A stretch of 38,879 nt of DNA from a virus. Within the stretch, counting starts at the first letter, position 1. Each line of letters starts with the position of its first letter. The notes beneath the pieces are model-generated. The model saw only the letters and a program-made list of their open reading frames with translations, made no database searches and was not told the origin of the DNA. The position numbers and the translations under genes were made by a program. The stretch spans positions 1 to 38,879 of the IMG/VR virus record IMGVR_UViG_3300043398_000133; one strand, written 5' to 3'. Shown piece by piece: positions 5,847 through 38,879 of this stretch.

Positions 5847-6308
5847 CTAAGGCTTCGCTGAAGGCCACGCCTCCAGCAGCATCAGTGTGTCGGCTGCGTG
5901 CCCATCAGCCGCTTTTGCCATGTCCGTAATAGCTCCTGCGCACTGAGCGAATAGCTCACGGGCGGGGTCTGTGTGGACACCTGGGGAGGATTGTGGATTG
6001 CTGGGCACGCACACGGGGGCGGTGTTTGCGATTGTGTCGCGCAGCCTACCAAGAGCATCACGGGCACCAGCAGCATCATTGGCCAGCGCTGTTTGACGGG
6101 CGGCGTGTTGCTTGGCTGCTTTGTCGGCTTGCGCTTGGAGTTTGATGGTGTCTGCATATGCCTTCTCCATTGCCCTGGCTTGGGCGGTTGCATATTCGGT
6201 TTTCAGTTGGGAAATCTGTGCGTCCATGCGCCAGCCCTGAACTTGCCAAGCCCCGGCAAACGCGATGGCGGCGCTGGCAATACCTGTGAATGCATAGGTG
6301 TAGATCAC
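5847..6308 (-). CDS. Rz: i-spanin (Rz-like)
   Basis: A 153-aa type II membrane protein. The N-terminal transmembrane helix (about residues 5-24, FTGIASAAIAFAGAW) is followed by a long periplasmic coiled coil (QISQLKTEYATAQARAMEKA, then ADKAAKQHAARQTA), the standard Rz layout. It would pair with Rz1 across the periplasm and fuse the membranes at the end of lysis, which implies a Gram-negative host. It starts at GTG in a GTGA overlap with the upstream gene. The Rz1 frame is nested inside it. Confidence 0.9.
   Translation of the reverse strand: MIYTYAFTGIASAAIAFAGAWQVQGWRMDAQISQLKTEYATAQARAMEKAYADTIKLQAQADKAAKQHAARQTALANDAAGARDALGRLRDTIANTAPVCVPSNPQSSPGVHTDPARELFAQCAGAITDMAKAADGHAADTLMLLEAWPSAKP
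5882..6193 (-). CDS. Rz1: o-spanin lipoprotein (Rz1-like), nested in Rz
   Basis: Read in another frame wholly within Rz. It carries a lipobox MLLVGC, Cys51 of the longest frame, giving a mature lipoprotein of about 53 residues rich in Pro (TPPPCACPAIHNPPQ). This is the classic Rz1 arrangement. The true start is uncertain: the ATG at 6193, the ATG at 6157 or the ATG pair at 6079 would all give an N-region plus hydrophobic stretch. It acts in the outer membrane inner leaflet as partner of Rz. Confidence 0.85.
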   Translation of the reverse strand: MQPPKPGQWRRHMQTPSNSKRKPTKQPSNTPPVKQRWPMMLLVPVMLLVGCATQSQTPPPCACPAIHNPPQVSTQTPPVSYSLSAQELLRTWQKRLMGTQPTH

Positions 6309-6502
6309 CGCATCACCCCACGAATAATTGAGTCGTCCGCATCAGGCAGCGGGATTTCCTCCAGCCCTTTCAGCTCCTGCAGCGCATCGGCGTGCTGCTC
6401 TTTTGCGGTGCGGGTTCGCATGCGCATGTAGGCTGCATCGGTGGTCTTGCGCACATACTCGCGGCGGGCCAGCTCAATACGTCCGCGCTTCCAGTCGTTC
6501 AT
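6305..6502 (-). CDS. Small phage protein between endolysin and spanin, 65 aa
   Basis: Starts MNDWKRGRIELARREYVRKT and ends LPDADDSIIRGVMR. It is highly charged and helical, with no membrane segment, so it is not a holin. It is coupled by 4-nt overlaps to both neighbours in the lysis cassette. Function unknown. Confidence 0.7.
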   Translation of the reverse strand: MNDWKRGRIELARREYVRKTTDAAYMRMRTRTAKEQHADALQELKGLEEIPLPDADDSIIRGVMR

Positions 6503-15695: not shown

Positions 15696-16754
15696 TTATG
15701 AGTTTTTGATGCCGTAGACACGCAGAACGCCGCTGACGTTGCCAGAGGCGGCGTAAAGTCGAACACCTTGGAACGTTCCTGCAACACCTGAACGGTCAGC
15801 CATGCCGCGAACGCGCCCGGTTGCCAGCGCCGCTGTCACCGTTTCACTGACCACAGACCACTCCAATGTTTTGTTATCAGGGGTGCGGAAAATTGTCATG
15901 CTCAGGTTGGCTTTCCAACGGTCAAGCGCGCCCGCACCCTCAGTGATGGGTATGAATGTTGTTGATGTGCTGTTTGTGAATGTCAGTGATGCCGCGCCAG
16001 TGGTGCCGACTTCTCGGAAGTATTGGTAATTGCTTCCTGCCCATATACCGCCCACTTGCATCCTTGAATAAATTGCCCCGTTTGCATCAGTTTTGGCATA
16101 CACCCACCCCATGACCACAATGCGGTCATAGGTAGCACCCCACGTATCCAGCCCGGTGATGTCAATGGTTGCCACGTCTGTGCCTGTGACAACCGCCAGC
16201 GGAGTGATGGCCGATGACAATGCAATGTCACCTGACCCCAGCAGCGATGCGCCGCCAATGGTTTTGATGTTGGAGCCGCTGACCAGCGTGGTCTGCTTTG
16301 TCGCCAGTTCAGTGCTGGTTTTTGTGCTGCTCCACACGCTTGTGAGTGCAGTTGCACCATCACTGATGGAGATTCCAGAACCCACAACAACGTCACCAGA
16401 ACCAACCAACGAAGCACCATTCACAGTCTTGATGCCTGTGATGTCCAGCTTGGCATCCAAAGCGGTCTGAGTGGCCGTTGAAATGGGCTTATTAAGGTCG
16501 CTGGTGTTGTCAGCATTGGACAGTCCGACTTGTGCCTTTGTGGTGCTGTGCGGGTTGTCCGTCCTGGCTGGGTGAGTTGCTGCGCCATTCAATTCTGTGT
16601 GCGTAGCAGTAACCGCCCCAGTTACGCCAGGGAATGTGGTCTTGATCGCTGACTTGATGTTGCGAATGTGATCATCGCCCTCAGAACGGGGGTCTGTGGC
16701 CGCTGGGAATGTTGCGTCCAGCGTGTTGATGGTGGTGACGATTTCGACGCTCAT
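15696..16754 (-). CDS. Tail fibre protein
   Basis: A 352-aa protein. The N-terminus (ATFPAATDPRSEGDDHIRNI then ATHTELNGA) is the common virion-attachment segment of phage fibres. The shaft carries two copies of a NGASLVGSGD/GGASLLGSGD repeat at ~115-170 and Ser/Thr-rich trimer-type sequence. The C-terminal ~140 residues (RIVVMGWVYAKTDANGAIYS) should be the receptor-binding head. Its start overlaps the adaptor stop by 4 nt. Confidence 0.8.
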   Translation of the reverse strand: MSVEIVTTINTLDATFPAATDPRSEGDDHIRNIKSAIKTTFPGVTGAVTATHTELNGAATHPARTDNPHSTTKAQVGLSNADNTSDLNKPISTATQTALDAKLDITGIKTVNGASLVGSGDVVVGSGISISDGATALTSVWSSTKTSTELATKQTTLVSGSNIKTIGGASLLGSGDIALSSAITPLAVVTGTDVATIDITGLDTWGATYDRIVVMGWVYAKTDANGAIYSRMQVGGIWAGSNYQYFREVGTTGAASLTFTNSTSTTFIPITEGAGALDRWKANLSMTIFRTPDNKTLEWSVVSETVTAALATGRVRGMADRSGVAGTFQGVRLYAASGNVSGVLRVYGIKNS

Positions 16755-17350
16755 ACGGCGTTCCTCACTTTGATTTGCAGGGAGCCAGATGCGGGAATGC
16801 CTTTGCGCTCTGCCATGCGGCGAACGGAATCAGTCGCCGCAGTGACCAGGGTTTGCAGCTTCACGCCTTCGGTGTCGTCCCGTATGTACTTGGCACCCTC
16901 AAGACAGGAGGCGTACAGGTACAAATCAGGGGCGTTGGCCAGCAGCCAATTCGATGTGTTGGTGTCGCTCAGTGCACCCATACCCGGCAGGTAGTGCAGC
17001 GTGTACGCCTGGCCGTCCGAAGTGCCGTAGATGCGGAGCTTTCCGGCCTCAAACGTGTAGTAGCCCGGGGCCTCTTGCACTTCCGTGCCAACGTTGGCCA
17101 GGGCGAGGTATTCCAGATTCCGGGTAACGCCGCCAGCAGTGACGGTGAGCTTTTGCAGCGTGCCGAAGTCAGCGGGTAGCACGGCATACCCGCCCACGGT
17201 CACGCCTGTGGTGATCACTTCCGTCTCAGGCGGGGAAATCTCGCGGAACAACGAACCTTCGGCCAGTTGGATGAAGGTGGGAATGACCGCAGCCAAGTCG
17301 GTGCGGTGCAAATAGGTGGCGACATTCGCCTGAAGTTCTGAATACGTCAT
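16751..17350 (-). CDS. Head-tail adaptor protein
   Basis: A 199-aa protein. Begins MTYSELQANVATYLHRTDLA, followed by FIQLAEGSLFREISPPETE and GYAVLPADFGTLQKLTV, the pattern of phage adaptor proteins that dock below the portal ring. The C-terminal helix GAKYIRDDTEGVKLQTLVTA also fits. It is coupled to the gene upstream (4-nt overlap) and to the fibre downstream. Confidence 0.8.
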   Translation of the reverse strand: MTYSELQANVATYLHRTDLAAVIPTFIQLAEGSLFREISPPETEVITTGVTVGGYAVLPADFGTLQKLTVTAGGVTRNLEYLALANVGTEVQEAPGYYTFEAGKLRIYGTSDGQAYTLHYLPGMGALSDTNTSNWLLANAPDLYLYASCLEGAKYIRDDTEGVKLQTLVTAATDSVRRMAERKGIPASGSLQIKVRNAV

Positions 17351-30438: not shown

Positions 30439-30467
30439 ACTTTAGCACACTAAATCAAGAGTGAAAA
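30439..30467 (-). promoter_or_regulatory. Promoter of cro and the leftward operon
   Basis: On the minus strand: -35 TTTTCA (30467-30462), 17-bp spacer, -10 TAAAGT (30444-30439). The operator TTTAGCACACTAAAT (30441-30455) covers the -10 box, so bound repressor would block it. The predicted start falls at about the cro ATG. Confidence 0.6.
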
Positions 30468-30494: not shown

Positions 30495-30501
30495 ACACGC
30501 A
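30490..30501 (+). promoter_or_regulatory. cI promoter (PRM-like), leaderless
   Basis: -10 TAAATA at 30490-30495 puts the transcription start at about 30501-30502, the A of the cI ATG. No ribosome site precedes the ATG and no good -35 exists 17 bp upstream. This is the lambda PRM situation: leaderless mRNA and dependence on activation by bound repressor at O2. Confidence 0.5.
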
Positions 30502-31184
30502 TGACCACCATGGCAGAACGAATCAGTGAGGCGATTGACGCTTCTGGCAAGCAGAGCCATGAGATCGCTGTTGCATGCGGCGTGACACCGGCTTCTGTTA
30601 CCCATTGGAAAAACGGCTCCACAAAAAGCCTAAAAGCTGTGACTGCTCAAAAATTTAGCGAGGTCACTGGCTACAGAGAGAAATGGTTGACCTCTGGCGT
30701 GGGCCCGAAAAAAGAAGAGGTTGTTGATGAGCCGTCCAACGTCAAGCCACTGGTCAGCAAAGCCAAGGTTCCGGTTATTTCATGGATTCAAGCTGGGGAG
30801 CTTTCAGACGTGCTTGACACGATTTATCCGGGGGAGGTTGAGCGCTGGGTAGATGCCCAGACTGTCACGCCAACCAGAAATGCATTCGCCTTGGTGGTTT
30901 CTGGCGACTCTATGCAGAACAAACAGGGGCTGAGCAAACACAACTTCCCCCCTGGCACGGTCCTTATCGTTGACCCAGAGCGGGCATGTGGTGCAGGCGA
31001 CTTCGTGATTGCCAAAGACGTGGCTACCCAACAAGCCAGCTTCAAGCAACTGGTGATGGATGGTGGGCGGTGGTATCTCAAGCCCATCAACAGCCAGTAC
31101 CCCACCATTGAGATTGACGACCCCGACCTGCGCGTGATCGGGCGTGTTGTGGAAGCAACCTATCCACCCATCAAGCTGATATGA
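30501..31184 (+). CDS. CI-type repressor, HTH plus S24 peptidase
   Basis: A 227-aa protein. Residues 5-48 form the HTH (SHEIAVACGVTPASVTHWKN). The autocleavage site Ala98-Gly99 lies in SWIQAGEL. The S24 domain carries Ser137 (VVSGDSMQ) and a candidate Lys182 (SFKQLV). These are the parts needed for RecA-stimulated self-cleavage, so the phage should be SOS-inducible. It would bind the TTTAGNNNNCTAAA operators at 30.44 and 32.1 kb. The start at 30501 fits a leaderless transcript; an in-frame ATG at 30510 is possible. Confidence 0.95.
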   Translation: MTTMAERISEAIDASGKQSHEIAVACGVTPASVTHWKNGSTKSLKAVTAQKFSEVTGYREKWLTSGVGPKKEEVVDEPSNVKPLVSKAKVPVISWIQAGELSDVLDTIYPGEVERWVDAQTVTPTRNAFALVVSGDSMQNKQGLSKHNFPPGTVLIVDPERACGAGDFVIAKDVATQQASFKQLVMDGGRWYLKPINSQYPTIEIDDPDLRVIGRVVEATYPPIKLI

Positions 31185-32079: not shown

Positions 32080-32109
32080 ATTTTATTTAGTTTACTTTAC
32101 TGCGCTCAA
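32080..32109 (-). promoter_or_regulatory. Leftward promoter of the HicB-like gene
   Basis: -35 TTGAGC (32109-32104), 18-bp spacer, -10 TAAAAT (32085-32080) on the minus strand. The operator at 32086-32099 lies in the spacer, so the CI-like protein should repress it. Confidence 0.45.
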
Positions 32110-32123
32110 TTTAGTGTGCTAAA
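32086..32123 (+). promoter_or_regulatory. Second operator cluster and rightward early promoter (PL-like)
   Basis: Sites TTTAGTTTACTTTA (32086-32099) and TTTAGTGTGCTAAA (32110-32123), 24 bp apart; with its preceding A the second is the exact inverse of O1 near cro. The promoter is TTTACT (32096-32101), 18 bp, TAAAGT (32120-32125), with start at about 32132. The -10 is covered by the operator exactly as at cro. Confidence 0.7.
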
Positions 32124-32132
32124 GTATGACCC

Positions 32133-32363
32133 ATGCCGCAAACAAAGCGGCATCGGGCCAAGGTGATCGAGCTTTGCACCCCGTTGCGTATGTGTTCCGG
32201 GGCACTCAAACAGACCGGTGAGGCAAAGCGGAAGCCAAAAAAAGCAAACCGCGACGGCAGAAATGCCACGTTGGGCCGGGGTTGTCAGTGCAAGGCTGCA
32301 ACCAGGTCGGTGGGTACCCCCAACGTCATCCCTTCGGGGTCATCAAAACACGGCGGCAGATAG
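32133..32363 (+). CDS. Possible leaderless basic peptide, 76 aa
   Basis: The ATG coincides with the predicted transcription start of the early promoter. The product is strongly basic (PQTKRHRAKVIEL, then GEAKRKPKKANRDGRN), a composition reminiscent of arginine-rich N-type antiterminators. Against it: the ATG forms one arm of a perfect hairpin, there is no ribosome site, and the C-terminal half is low-quality. Both coding and noncoding readings remain open. Confidence 0.3.
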   Translation: MPQTKRHRAKVIELCTPLRMCSGALKQTGEAKRKPKKANRDGRNATLGRGCQCKAATRSVGTPNVIPSGSSKHGGR

Positions 32364-32628
32364 TGATCTGCCACAAGCGCAGCCAGTGCGCGGCCTGAGC
32401 CCAGCAATGGGGAGACGCAGGCCACCCCTCAAACGAGGGGCATCAAGCAAGCGTCTGGATTGGGCGCTTACTTGATGACCGGCAAGAGCGTGTGCGGAAT
32501 TAGCCACGGCGCGCAAAAAACCACTTTCCATCAAAAGGAACCGTGCGTTGAAGAAAAGCAAAGCCCTGCTTCATGGGCAGCTTGTCGGGCATCAACCAAA
32601 CCTCCCTGAGCTGCTTCGGCAGCTTTTC

Positions 32629-32659
32629 GCCCCCGGCTTCAAACACCGGGGGCTTTTTT
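32629..32659 (+). terminator. Strong intrinsic terminator at the end of the early leader
   Basis: GCCCCCGG (32629-32636), 9-nt loop, CCGGGGGC (32646-32653), then six T (32654-32659). It precedes the first convincing early gene by 17 nt. Expression of the whole right operon therefore depends on readthrough. Confidence 0.92.
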
Positions 32660-32676
32660 CTTTCTGGAGCCGAGAC

Positions 32677-32991
32677 ATGGACCCGCGCCACTTCCACGTT
32701 GCCGAACTTGTGCCCACCGGGTTTCGCACACCGCCAGTGCTTGATGCGCTGGTGCCACTGGTAGCCCCGCCTGAAGCCGGGCACACCTACCGAACTCAGT
32801 GCGAGGTCAGCCCCGGCGTTTGGCTGACGGTTGACTGGGCAGAAAACGAGGACGACGGCTTTTACCTGCACAGCGTGTGGGCTGGTCCCGTTGAGATGCA
32901 CCGCTCCGAGATGCTGGAAGGCTGGGCGGTGGACAAGTGCTATGCGGCTGTCGAACAGCATGCGGCCGAGTCGCGGGAGGAATGCGAATGA
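32677..32991 (+). CDS. Phage protein of unknown function, 104 aa, first convincing early gene
   Basis: MDPRHFHVAELVPTGFRTPP, then CEVSPGVWLTVDWAENEDDG and FYLHSVWAGPVEMHRSEML. It begins behind GGAG at 32677; the in-frame extension to TTG 32548 runs through the terminator and is rejected. Compact alpha/beta protein, no recognised domain. Confidence 0.65.
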   Translation: MDPRHFHVAELVPTGFRTPPVLDALVPLVAPPEAGHTYRTQCEVSPGVWLTVDWAENEDDGFYLHSVWAGPVEMHRSEMLEGWAVDKCYAAVEQHAAESREECE

Positions 32992-34045: not shown

Positions 34046-35218
34046 ATGGAACTTTTGGACATTGAAGAAGTGGGCACCACCGCCCTTCCCCCCGCCGAGC
34101 GCGCCGCCCTGGCGCTGGACAGTGGAAAAGCAGAGCGCCACCTGACCGAGTTGGCCACCAAGCACGCCAGCATCACGCTGGTGAAAGACAAGGCAGGCCG
34201 CGAGCAGGCCCACGGCGCAGCCATGGAGTTGACCCGCGCACGCACCGCCGTTGAGCGTGCAGCCAAAGAAGCCCGCGAGGATGCGACCAAGTTTTCCAAG
34301 GCCGTGATTGCCGAGGCTGCCCGCCTGGTGGCCATCGTTGAGCCGGAAGAAACCCGCCTGAAAGCGGTGCGCGATGCGTGGGACGCTGAGCAGGCCCGCA
34401 TCAAGGCCGAAGCCGAGGCCAAGGAGCGCGCCCGCGTGCTGGCCATCACCGAGCGCATTGCGGCCATCAAGAGCTACGTGGTGCTGGCCAACAACTGCCG
34501 CACCAGTGAGCGCGTGGCCGACCTGCAAACCAAGTTGGCCGGTGTGGAGCTGTTGGACTTTGAAGAGTTTGCCGACGAAGCAGGCTTCGCCTATGCCGAT
34601 GCCACTGCGCACCTGGCTGACGTGCTGGCTGACCGCAAAGCCCAAGAAGCCCAGCAAGCCCGCATCAAGGCCGAGCAAGAAGCCGAATCCGCCCGCCTGA
34701 AGGCCGAGCGCGAAGAGCTGGCCCGCCAGCAGGCCGAGGCCGCCGCAGCCATCAAGAAGCAGCAGGACGAGCTGGCCGCACAGCGCGAAGCAGCGGCAGC
34801 CGAAGCCAGGCGCGTGGCCGACGAAGCCCGTGCCCAGGCCGAAGCCGCAGAGGCCCGCGTGCGCGCCGCCGCCGAGGAGATGGCCGCCCAGCGTGCCGAG
34901 CTGGAGCGCATGCGCGCCGAGCTGGAGGCCAAGAGCAAGCCCGCCGCCGAGCCCATGCTGACTGAGGCGGCGCGACTTGTTGACATGGTTTCAGGCATTG
35001 GTGGCGCTGTCGATGCGGTTGACGGCCCATATTTCCCGGCAGACCCCGAGCCAGCTCCGGTAGCAGCCGAGCCAGCCCCGGTAGTTGCCCACCTGCCGCC
35101 CGCCCCGGTCGCCAGCGCAATCGTGCTGGCTGTTGCCTCGTACTGGGACACCGACAACAAGACCGCCGCGCGCTGGATTACCGAGCGTGCAGCGGAAATC
35201 GAAAGCCTGAAAGGTTGA
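34046..35218 (+). CDS. Long coiled-coil phage protein before recT
   Basis: A 390-aa protein. Residues 30-110 and 120-310 are charged Ala/Glu/Arg-rich coiled coil (ARIKAEAEAKERARVLAITE and similar). A Pro/Ala-rich linker (AAEPAPVVAHLPPAPVA) leads to a short C-terminal domain (WDTDNKTAARWITERAAEI). A perfect AAGGAG precedes the ATG. Similar proteins sit before phage recT genes and may organise or anchor recombination proteins. The function is inferred only from position. Confidence 0.7.
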   Translation: MELLDIEEVGTTALPPAERAALALDSGKAERHLTELATKHASITLVKDKAGREQAHGAAMELTRARTAVERAAKEAREDATKFSKAVIAEAARLVAIVEPEETRLKAVRDAWDAEQARIKAEAEAKERARVLAITERIAAIKSYVVLANNCRTSERVADLQTKLAGVELLDFEEFADEAGFAYADATAHLADVLADRKAQEAQQARIKAEQEAESARLKAEREELARQQAEAAAAIKKQQDELAAQREAAAAEARRVADEARAQAEAAEARVRAAAEEMAAQRAELERMRAELEAKSKPAAEPMLTEAARLVDMVSGIGGAVDAVDGPYFPADPEPAPVAAEPAPVVAHLPPAPVASAIVLAVASYWDTDNKTAARWITERAAEIESLKG

Positions 35219-35220
35219 CC

Positions 35221-36165
35221 ATGGGACACGAAATCGCAACTGCAAAGCAGTTTGACCTGAGCCCCCAGTCGTTTGACCAAGCGCTGACCCTCAGCCAGTA
35301 CCTGGCCGACAGCGACATGGTGCCCAAGGACTTCAAGAGCAAGCCCGGCAACTGTCTGGTGGCCATCCAGTGGGGCATGGAGCTCGGGCTGAAGCCGTTG
35401 CAAGCCATGCAGAACCTGGCCGTGATCAACGGGCGGCCCAGCCTGTGGGGTGATGCCGTCATCGCCCTGGTGCGCAGCAGCCCCGCGTGTGAGTGGGTCA
35501 TCGAGACGCAAACCGAGGACATGGCCACCTGCCGGGTGAAGCGCCGGGGAGAGCCCGAGCAGGAGCGCACCTTCAGCCGCGCCGATGCCAAGCTGGCCGG
35601 GCTGCTGGGCAAGCAAGGGCCATGGGCGCAGTACCCCAAGCGGATGATGCAGATGCGCGCCCGCGCCTTCGCCATGCGCGACGTGTTCCCCGACGTGCTG
35701 CGCGGCCTGCCGGTGGCCGAGGAAGTGATGGACCTGCCCAAAGACATGGGCCAGGCCCATGAGCTGCCCAAGTGGACGGAGGCCAACTACGAGGCCGCCG
35801 ACAAGGCCAGCCGCGAGGGCGTGAAGGCCTACCAGGCTTTTTGGGTGACGTTGCCCGCCAACGACCGCAAGGTGTTGGTGGCCACGCAAGAGCACGAAAA
35901 GTTCAAGGCCGTGGCCATGGCCGCAGACAAGTCGCGCACCGTGGACGACGCCCGCACCGTGGACGCCCCGGCCAAGCCCGCCGCCCAGCAGCAGCCCGCC
36001 ACCAAGACTTTCGAGGAGGTCATGGCCATGCTGTGCCAGGCGACCACCGAGGATGCGCTGTACGTTGCTGGCGACTGGGTGAACGCCATCCAAGACGCCG
36101 AGCAGGTGCAAATGCTCAACGACAAATTTGACGAGAAGCTGGCAGAAATGCGAGGTGCCCAATGA
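35221..36165 (+). CDS. recT: RecT-family single-strand annealing recombinase
   Basis: A 314-aa protein. YLADSDMVPKDFKSKPGNC, IQWGMELGLKPLQAMQNLAV and INGRPSLWGDAVIALVRSSP are the hallmark RecT segment, and KRMMQMRARAFAMRDVFPDV follows. It anneals complementary strands exposed by the exonuclease encoded next. The ATG at 35221 is 2 nt after the preceding stop, behind AAAGG. The C-terminal 90 residues are a Lys/Ala linker plus a small helical domain. Confidence 0.93.
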   Translation: MGHEIATAKQFDLSPQSFDQALTLSQYLADSDMVPKDFKSKPGNCLVAIQWGMELGLKPLQAMQNLAVINGRPSLWGDAVIALVRSSPACEWVIETQTEDMATCRVKRRGEPEQERTFSRADAKLAGLLGKQGPWAQYPKRMMQMRARAFAMRDVFPDVLRGLPVAEEVMDLPKDMGQAHELPKWTEANYEAADKASREGVKAYQAFWVTLPANDRKVLVATQEHEKFKAVAMAADKSRTVDDARTVDAPAKPAAQQQPATKTFEEVMAMLCQATTEDALYVAGDWVNAIQDAEQVQMLNDKFDEKLAEMRGAQ

Positions 36166-36788
36166 TTCACCACCAACACGAACAAGGCTCAGAAGAGTGG
36201 TTGGCCGCTCGCCGGGGCCTTATTACCGGAAGCATGTTCAAAGTGGCCCGCGACCGGCTGAAGAACGGCAGCCCGTCCAAGCAGTGCCAGCAGTACGCCA
36301 TGGACTTGGCCCGCGAGCGCTGCGGTGGCAAGTCGCCCGACAAGTTCCAGAGCTACCACATGCGCGTGGGCTCTGAGCAAGAGGCTGCCGCCCGCGCCGC
36401 CTACGAAGCCGCCACCGGCAACCTGGTGGAAGAGGTGGGGTTTTTTGCTGACGAGGCTGGGCAGTTCGGGTTGTCGCCAGATGGCCTGATCGGCACCGAT
36501 GGCGTGCTCGAAATCAAAACCATGGTGTCCAGCGACACACTTTTCACTGCGGTGGTGGCTGAAGATGTGAGCGAATACATGGACCAGTGCCTGGGCTATC
36601 TGTGGATGCTGGGCCGAGAGTGGGTAGACCTGGTGCTGTGGGCGCCCGACCTGGAGCACATCCACATCAAGCGCATCACCAAGGCCGACTACACCGGCCA
36701 CATCGAATCGCTGGAGAAAGACCTGTTGGAGTTTGCCCAGACCGTGCGCCTGTACGAGTCGAAGCTGCGCCGGGTGCTGGCCGCCTGA
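36162..36788 (+). CDS. YqaJ-family exonuclease, partner of RecT
   Basis: A 208-aa PD-(D/E)XK exonuclease. [20 protein letters not shown] at 10-29, [20 protein letters not shown] at 65-84, and catalytic [19 protein letters not shown] with Asp107, Glu117 and Lys119. It resects double-stranded ends for RecT, like lambda exonuclease with Beta. The start overlaps the recT stop by 4 nt. Confidence 0.93.
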
Positions 36789-38441: not shown

Positions 38442-38879
38442 AACTGATAGGCATGGCCCGCCTGGGCCGCGACCCGGAAATGCGCTACCTGGGCGACAAC
38501 GCCACGCTGGGCGACAACGCCACGCTGGGCGACGAAGCCACGCTGGGCGACAACGCCACGCTGGGCGACGACGCCACGCTGGGCGACGACGCCACGCTGG
38601 GCGACAACGCCACGCTGGGCAACAGGGCCACGCTGGGCGACTGGGCCACGCTGGGCAACTGGGCCACGCTGGGCAACGAAGCCACGCTGGGCGACGGGGC
38701 CACGCTGGGCGACGACGCCACGCTGGGCAACTGGGCCACGCTGGGCAACGAAGCCACGCTGGGCGACGGGGCCACGCTGGGCAACATGGCCACGCTGGGC
38801 GACAACGCCACGCTGGGCGACAACGCCACGCTGGGCGACGACGCCACGCTGGGCAACTGGGCCACGCTGGGCAACGAAG
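38438..38879 (+). CDS. SSB-like N-terminus fused to hexapeptide repeats, 5' part
   Basis: The gene runs off the window and joins the frame at 1-633 (same repeat, same frame). Residues 1-17 (MKLIGMARLGRDPEMRY) match the start of SSB proteins, with GRDPE-x-RY shared with this phage's own ssb. Exactly where SSB would continue with a P-D-G turn, the sequence becomes LGDN and then 21 ATLG-x-x units. It looks like a captured ssb start supplying initiation signals for the beta-helix. No OB fold remains, so it should not act as an SSB. Confidence 0.8.
   Translation, partial: MKLIGMARLGRDPEMRYLGDNATLGDNATLGDEATLGDNATLGDDATLGDDATLGDNATLGNRATLGDWATLGNWATLGNEATLGDGATLGDDATLGNWATLGNEATLGDGATLGNMATLGDNATLGDNATLGDDATLGNWATLGNE
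38489..38879 (+). repeat. 18-bp tandem repeat tract, right end
   Basis: A partial unit and 21 full 18-bp units, all gcc acg ctg ggc followed by gac or aac and one variable codon (aac, gac, gaa, ggg, tgg, atg, agg). Continues the tract at 1-345. The last 127 bases equal 184-310, so the true total copy number cannot be read from this sequence. Confidence 0.95.

Follow-up and report, generated by a model that had tools for sequence, protein, structure and literature searches.

The early operon of the phage represented by the window opens with a non-coding, + strand RNA leader of ~530 nt that folds into a series of stems and an H-type pseudoknot, and that may act in processive antitermination. 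The window, the whole stretch of DNA analysed, corresponds to a virus record in IMG/VR, 38,879 bases long. A sequence-only reading had proposed that this operon begins with a large structured RNA, and folding, compensatory changes in the closest relative, covariation across a leader family, and a held-out covariance model all bear the proposal out. The pseudoknot, the homologues, and an Rfam fragment of the family were absent from that reading.

Position of the leader in the early operon

The leader lies between a predicted promoter and an intrinsic terminator, with a CI-like repressor gene ~950 nt from the promoter and recombination genes farther along the same operon. Gene calls are simple open reading frame picks, and the start and end of the leader are predictions. 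The main features are listed below, where L093 is the nearest leader relative.

30432–30250, strand opposite to the leader: cro, preceded by the same operator as the leader
30501–31184, +: CI-like repressor (PHROG transcriptional repressor, 1.8e-43), upstream of the leader on the same strand
32096–32101 and 32120–32125, +: predicted sigma-70 promoter of an early pL-type operon, -35 TTTACT and -10 TAAAGT with an 18-nt spacer
32110–32123, no strand assigned: operator palindrome TTTAGTGTGCTAAA, sequence-based, overlapping the -10
about 32131–32133, +: predicted +1 of the early promoter, placed by aligning this promoter with those of 23 homologous leaders
~32130–32660, +: leader, non-coding structured RNA, the promoter-to-terminator span before the recT/exo operon
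32677–32991, +: first operon gene, 104 aa, unknown function, 88% identical in L093
downstream of the leader in the operon, +: HNH endonuclease
35215–36165, +: RecT-like annealing protein, same operon as the leader
36162–36788, +: exonuclease, same operon as the leader

Most of the 23 aligned homologous promoters have a clear TTGAC/-10 at equal distance. The operator region is repeated in inverted orientation, with a second copy of TTTAGTGTGCTAAA at 30441–30454, before cro. This layout of repressor, cro, and two operators is the lambda pL/pR arrangement, with the leader at pL. The pR side of the window carries no leader, and a second one there is ruled out by cro, which begins right after its promoter; farther downstream on the pR strand, the search for a copy used the pseudoknot model only.

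Structural elements of the leader

The stems named in the sequence-only reading (the GCAA and UUCG tetraloops, the AAAC loop, and the long stem) are present between promoter and terminator, and the first stem, as had been claimed, starts at the predicted +1 or within ~3 nt of it.

32130–32157, +: P1, 5'-terminal hairpin CCC-ATGCCGC-(AAACAAA)-GCGGCAT-c-GGG, recurring hairpin CCCATGCCGC-AAACAAA-GCGGCATCGGG; exact or variant copies at +1 of other phages
32162–32180, +: P2, GGTG-ATCGAGCTTTG-CACC, common to class A leaders
32218–32252, +: H-type pseudoknot, GTGAGGC-loop-GCC-A-rich-tail, from permutation test, covariation, and held-out model
32222–32224 with 32234–32236, and 32228–32231 with 32249–32252, +: pseudoknot pairings, GGC with GCC and loop GCGG with CCGC
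32237–32248, +: A-rich linker of the pseudoknot
32268–32326, +: P3, stem ACGTTGGG/CCCAACGT around GGTTGTCAGTGCAAGGCTGCAACC; double-compensatory 32275–32319, GC to AU in L093; inner part resembling class A GGTCGCCAGTGCGAAGGCT (weak local match)
32330–32339, +: UUCG tetraloop hairpin CCC-TTCG-GGG, from sequence, kept in L093
32355–32372, +: hairpin GGCAGAT-AGTG-ATCTGCC, double-compensatory 32359–32368; related hairpin in L153
32377–32423, +: two adjoining stems, the second with a GCAA tetraloop, double-compensatory 32403–32408; similar block in L154
~32400–32411, +: GCAA tetraloop stem CCCA-GCAA-UGGG, with a UUCG-type loop instead in L093
32425–32440, +: AAAC-loop hairpin CCCCTC-AAAC-GAGGGG, from folding and the L093 comparison; similar hairpin in L150/L151
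32441–32477, +: long interrupted 15-bp stem (CATCAAG.AAGCGTC ... CTTGATG), from folding and the L093 comparison
32541–32571, +: second, weak match to the pseudoknot model, AAGAAAAGCAAAGCCCTGC, E=0.67, not significant alone
32609–32627, +: second UUCG hairpin (~32609–32624), GCTGC-TTCG-GCAGC followed by TTTT, terminator-like, from sequence
32629–32659, +: intrinsic terminator GCCCCCGG...CCGGGGGC-TTTTTT, directly 5' of the first gene

The whole leader folds at -220.7 kcal/mol, 3.8 SD below dinucleotide shuffles, with 0 of 100 as low. The earlier claim that structure here is far denser than in the rest of the window goes too far and is only partly borne out: the 150-nt folding windows at 32326 and 32401 rank 4th–5th of 517, and the remaining leader windows are average. 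Within the window, the most extreme local z-score for folding belongs to 38476–38879, a stretch of in-frame 18-nt repeats (GGCGAC.ACGCCACGCTG) with LGDNAT-like hexapeptides that runs off the contig end, and further low z-scores on the + strand (2026–2175, 16501–16950, and 35701–35925) apparently lie inside genes.

The leader is non-coding RNA

A comparison with L093, also from IMG/VR and 94% identical over ~465 nt of leader, distinguishes RNA from protein-coding sequence. The sequence-only reading had named homologues that keep a reading frame, without compensatory changes in the stems, as evidence to the contrary; in L093 the frames are broken by indels of 1, 1, and 2 nt and the stems are kept by three double-compensatory changes. 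Four further one-sided changes each give a + strand G-U pair in L093; on the opposite strand they would be A-C mismatches, and the changes fit the + strand only. The compensatory count used a structure derived from both phages and is therefore biased in favour of agreement. When the structure is predicted from the window sequence only, two double changes persist (P=0.009, random placement of the same substitutions), and broken pairs number 3 versus 5.4 expected, which is not significant. We conclude that the leader is a non-coding + strand RNA. Overlapping reading frames of 76 and 85 aa, together with the ordinary folding energy of some 150-nt leader windows, would suit coding DNA, or structure arising by chance from a high GC content, an account that we give almost no credence and that is already contradicted by the indels and compensatory pairs, by the double changes on the window-only fold, and by covariation across the family. 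Separately, ~178 nt (32417–32594) are free of any difference between the two phages while the rest of the leader differs by several percent, which suggests a recent module exchange.

A family of leaders with a covarying pseudoknot

Among the matches listed, about 70 distinct phage loci carry the 5' hairpin and pseudoknot. Exact P1 occurs in four other phages (L089, L090, L091, and L093), three of which carry different leader bodies, and in a fragment of the same phage; L007, L098, L101, and L124 have P1 variants. Further leaders were found as a cascade, by following shared body segments. The short motif GTGAGGC-N-GCCAAGAnnAnnAA occurs in at least 120 stretches of viral contigs, and among those listed roughly half to two thirds are real, judged by flanking sequence.

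The pseudoknot loop and tail change together, pairing GCGG with CCGC in the window and CUGGG with CCCAG, CAGGG with CCCUG, or GGUC with GACC in others. Loop-tail complementarity across 66 instances is 9.41, versus 6.84 ± 0.37 with tails permuted (z=6.9, 0/2000), and some of these instances probably match the pattern by chance, which dilutes the signal and does not inflate it. When the neighbouring stem and the pseudoknot are aligned together, covariation reaches 0.205 versus 0.078 ± 0.016 when shuffled (0/500), falling to 0.052 or less when the pairing is slid. A wider, less clean alignment gives 0.138 versus 0.077 ± 0.014, and 0.141 when slid by +1, because its register is one column out in places. 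Many loci were selected by a pattern on the pseudoknot's conserved letters, so the selection itself accounts for part of the conservation of those letters; it does not bear on the loop-tail pairing or on the held-out test on the window. In the latter, a covariance model built from 35 sequences, with the window's phage and L093 excluded, placed its best match in the window at 32216–32257 (27.1 bits, E=5e-4 over 38.9 kb), and its second, non-significant match (32541–32571) also falls inside the leader.

Beyond these elements, the window leader has the 5' hairpin, GGTGATCGAGC..GCACC, the pseudoknot, GGTTGTCAGTGCAAGGCT, and a hairpin-GAGACGC block in common with various relatives. The shared modules stand in different order, the shorter matches being individually weak, and the leaders as compared by sequence are best described as mosaics of interchangeable structured modules. 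Two tandem pseudoknots ~33 nt apart are seen in L158, L180, L181, L218, and L230. A second recurring element, CCATCNNNNNNN ... NNNNNNNGATGG (~75–200 nt), sits in the leader or downstream gaps of the pL operon in L093, L089, L090, L007, L122, L124, L152, and L154, often between GGGG and TGAATG, and is absent from the window. Its arms vary in sequence and keep perfect complementarity over at least 12 nt (CCATCACATCAG/CTGATGTGATGG, CCATCATTGAAG/CTTCAATGATGG, CCATCAGGGCAG/CTGCCCTGATGG, and others), in a search that itself required complementary arms; it looks like another covarying structured module.

Relation to known RNA families

Searching the window against Rfam at gathering and permissive thresholds returned sub-threshold matches only, chiefly terminator hairpins (anti-hemB, for instance, scored 30.7 bits versus 49.5 needed); a tRNA/tmRNA search of the window found none. 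RF02917 (Burkholderiales-2, 74 nt) has no match in the window at gathering score and matches the sibling leaders L190, L194, and L214, where it covers 74 nt just 5' of the pseudoknot on the strand opposite the promoter. Because promoters, pseudoknot, and G-U changes indicate that the other strand is transcribed, RF02917 appears to capture a fragment of the leader family, modelled on the wrong strand. The family is essentially undescribed before, Rfam holding that fragment only.

Genomic context and distribution

All 24 inspected leaders begin immediately 3' of a promoter-like sequence, mostly a clear TTGAC/-10. These promoters are embedded in operator palindromes that vary by phage, and the RNA is conserved. 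Among the non-redundant loci, 38 have more than 3 kb of upstream sequence, and 29 of these contain a CI-type repressor homologue, in every case (29/29) upstream of the leader and on the same strand, which is where lambda has pL/nutL and HK022 has putL. The family thus keeps to a single genomic position across many Burkholderiales phages. Wherever context is readable, the leader is in cis to the pL operon and lies just 5' of a start codon, and no free-standing copy was seen. recT/exo genes follow it in the window's phage, in L093, and in Bordetella avium phages, where the leader stands between repressor and exo/recT. In the last group, a doubtful antisense 'hypothetical protein' partly covers the leader; in Bordetella phage vB_BaM-IFTN2 (L270) this is vBBaMIFTN2_48 (6061–6357, -), annotated antisense to the leader and probably not a gene. 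We found no protein family common to all leader neighbourhoods.

In the GTDB family to which a Polaromonas genome belongs, 10 of 401 genomes carry the motif. Across 399 genomes of the phylum, matches with the A-rich linker were confined to two members of that same family, several others being discounted for want of the linker, and a reversed control pattern gave 0 matches; convincing matches among the genomes searched are confined to Burkholderiaceae. The window leader had no blastn match to phage and plasmid records. Among 50,697 phage records, sibling-leader queries retrieved only nine Bordetella avium phages (IFTN1-9) with the queries tried, other sibling queries giving no match. The genome-contig pattern matches L102–L117 were judged to be chance after inspection of L110 and L102. 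Two leaders in one phage were considered for the G229 and G275 pairs and rejected, as they lie on different contigs; the G009 pair (L149–L150) lies 69 kb apart on one contig, each leader adjoining its own repressor, and probably represents two prophages.

Possible functions of the leader

Processive antitermination best explains a CI-repressed folded leader followed by a terminator before the first gene and by later sense terminators, and we see an even chance that the leader is a cis-acting antitermination RNA, put/nut-like in role and not homologous to put. It would fold as RNA polymerase departs the derepressed pL promoter and remain attached to the elongation complex, either directly, like HK022 put, or via host Nus factors acting at boxA-like sites in some members. 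Polymerase would then read through the terminator of the leader and those farther along the operon, and recT/exo and other early genes would be expressed without N protein. A terminator follows the pseudoknot within 300 nt in 24 of 45 loci, and strong terminators farther inside the operons favour the sense strand (63 versus 31 antisense, p=0.011; at least one in 31 of 51 loci), an excess that is moderate, simply predicted, and could instead mark separate transcription units. The lack of a protein family shared by every leader favours either the RNA by itself or host factors. The put-like role raised by the sequence-only reading keeps the pL-side position and the sense terminators in its favour and loses any sequence relation to HK022 put; the greater size, several times that of put, the apparent lack of a pR counterpart to HK022 putR, and the lack of a canonical boxA in the window leader would also weigh against antitermination.

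Host factors enter through boxA-like sequences. G[CT]TCTT is present in 13 of 42 non-redundant leaders (5 on the antisense strand, 3.5 ± 1.8 when shuffled), and CTCTTTAACA, the core of the E. coli rrn boxA, in three leaders and in no antisense sequence; it would bring in NusB-S10. A universal boxA is rejected, the sequences being confined to this subset. The same sites are compatible with a protein-dependent nut-type site or attenuator, at which a phage or host protein switches termination, for instance to provide a second layer of immunity; the terminator directly 5' of the first gene fits such a switch, and the conserved AAACAAA loop and the pseudoknot could be binding sites. We regard this arrangement as distinctly unlikely given that no partner gene is common to all loci and that the window is devoid of boxA-like sequence. 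The end terminator could equally well release a separate RNA. Transcription would then mostly stop at 32660 and the ~530-nt product would target the host or a rival phage in trans, as a protein or RNA decoy or in anti-defence, with the operon fed by leak-through. An elaborate modular fold exceeding put in size, the strong 3' terminator, a 5' hairpin that could protect the RNA, and module shuffling between phages that may resemble a host-interaction arms race all fit this proposal; the leader's location in cis at the pL operon wherever context is readable, with no free-standing gene seen, and the need for another promoter or leak-through speak against it, and we rate it as unlikely. A 5' UTR that merely stabilizes mRNA or controls translation would account for a 5'-terminal hairpin at +1 across the family. 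A stabilizer, however, needs one hairpin rather than a conserved 500-nt multi-module fold with a pseudoknot, first genes vary between phages, and a terminator stands between leader and genes, all of which makes this role very improbable.

Returning to antitermination, we propose, with somewhat less than even confidence, that a large modular class of RNA, shuffled between Burkholderiales phages, makes RNA polymerase termination-resistant at the main early promoter, alone or with host Nus factors only. To our knowledge, no such RNA-only antitermination system has been described in Burkholderiales. If true, it would explain recombination and early gene expression without an evident N protein in these phages, and dozens of naturally occurring variants would be available for experiments on how RNA can reprogramme RNA polymerase by itself.

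Comparison with known systems

Two identities raised by the sequence-only reading fell away. A P4/P1-style immunity RNA is unsupported, as the window has no Rfam match and the RNA sits in a CI-repressed early leader; identity with GOLLD or ROOL is likewise unsupported in the absence of an Rfam match in the window. We know of no description of either at a CI-repressed early promoter with a terminator at the gene start. What the leader has in common with them is being large, ornate, and phage-associated (PMC12286853).

Lambda nutL shares the pL position. Lambda nut, however, has boxA, boxB, and the N protein, whereas the window has no canonical boxA and the family no common N-type neighbour, and the leader structure is far larger than that of nutL or an rrn leader. 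The proposed system would be an RNA-only counterpart of lambda N, much larger than put and with pseudoknots.

Nearly all that is known of RNA-only antitermination comes from a single phage element, HK022 put, which functions without a phage protein, begins pairing at nt 3 of the transcript, and contains a minor-groove RNA triplex (PMC9378689). Homology to put is rejected: 6% of shuffles reach the score of the best local alignment between the HK022 pL leader and that of the window. Put is ~70 nt with two stem-loops, whereas the window leader is ~530 nt with many stems and a pseudoknot, and put has a second copy, putR, in the pR transcript, whereas the leader has none. HK022 put confers terminator resistance on RNA polymerase by way of the beta' zinc-binding domain. 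The likeness to putL lies elsewhere: both form the 5' end of the pL early transcript, pair from the transcript start in the first stem, precede terminators, and have no evident phage protein, and the A-rich H-type pseudoknot could form a triplex analogous to that of HK022 put.
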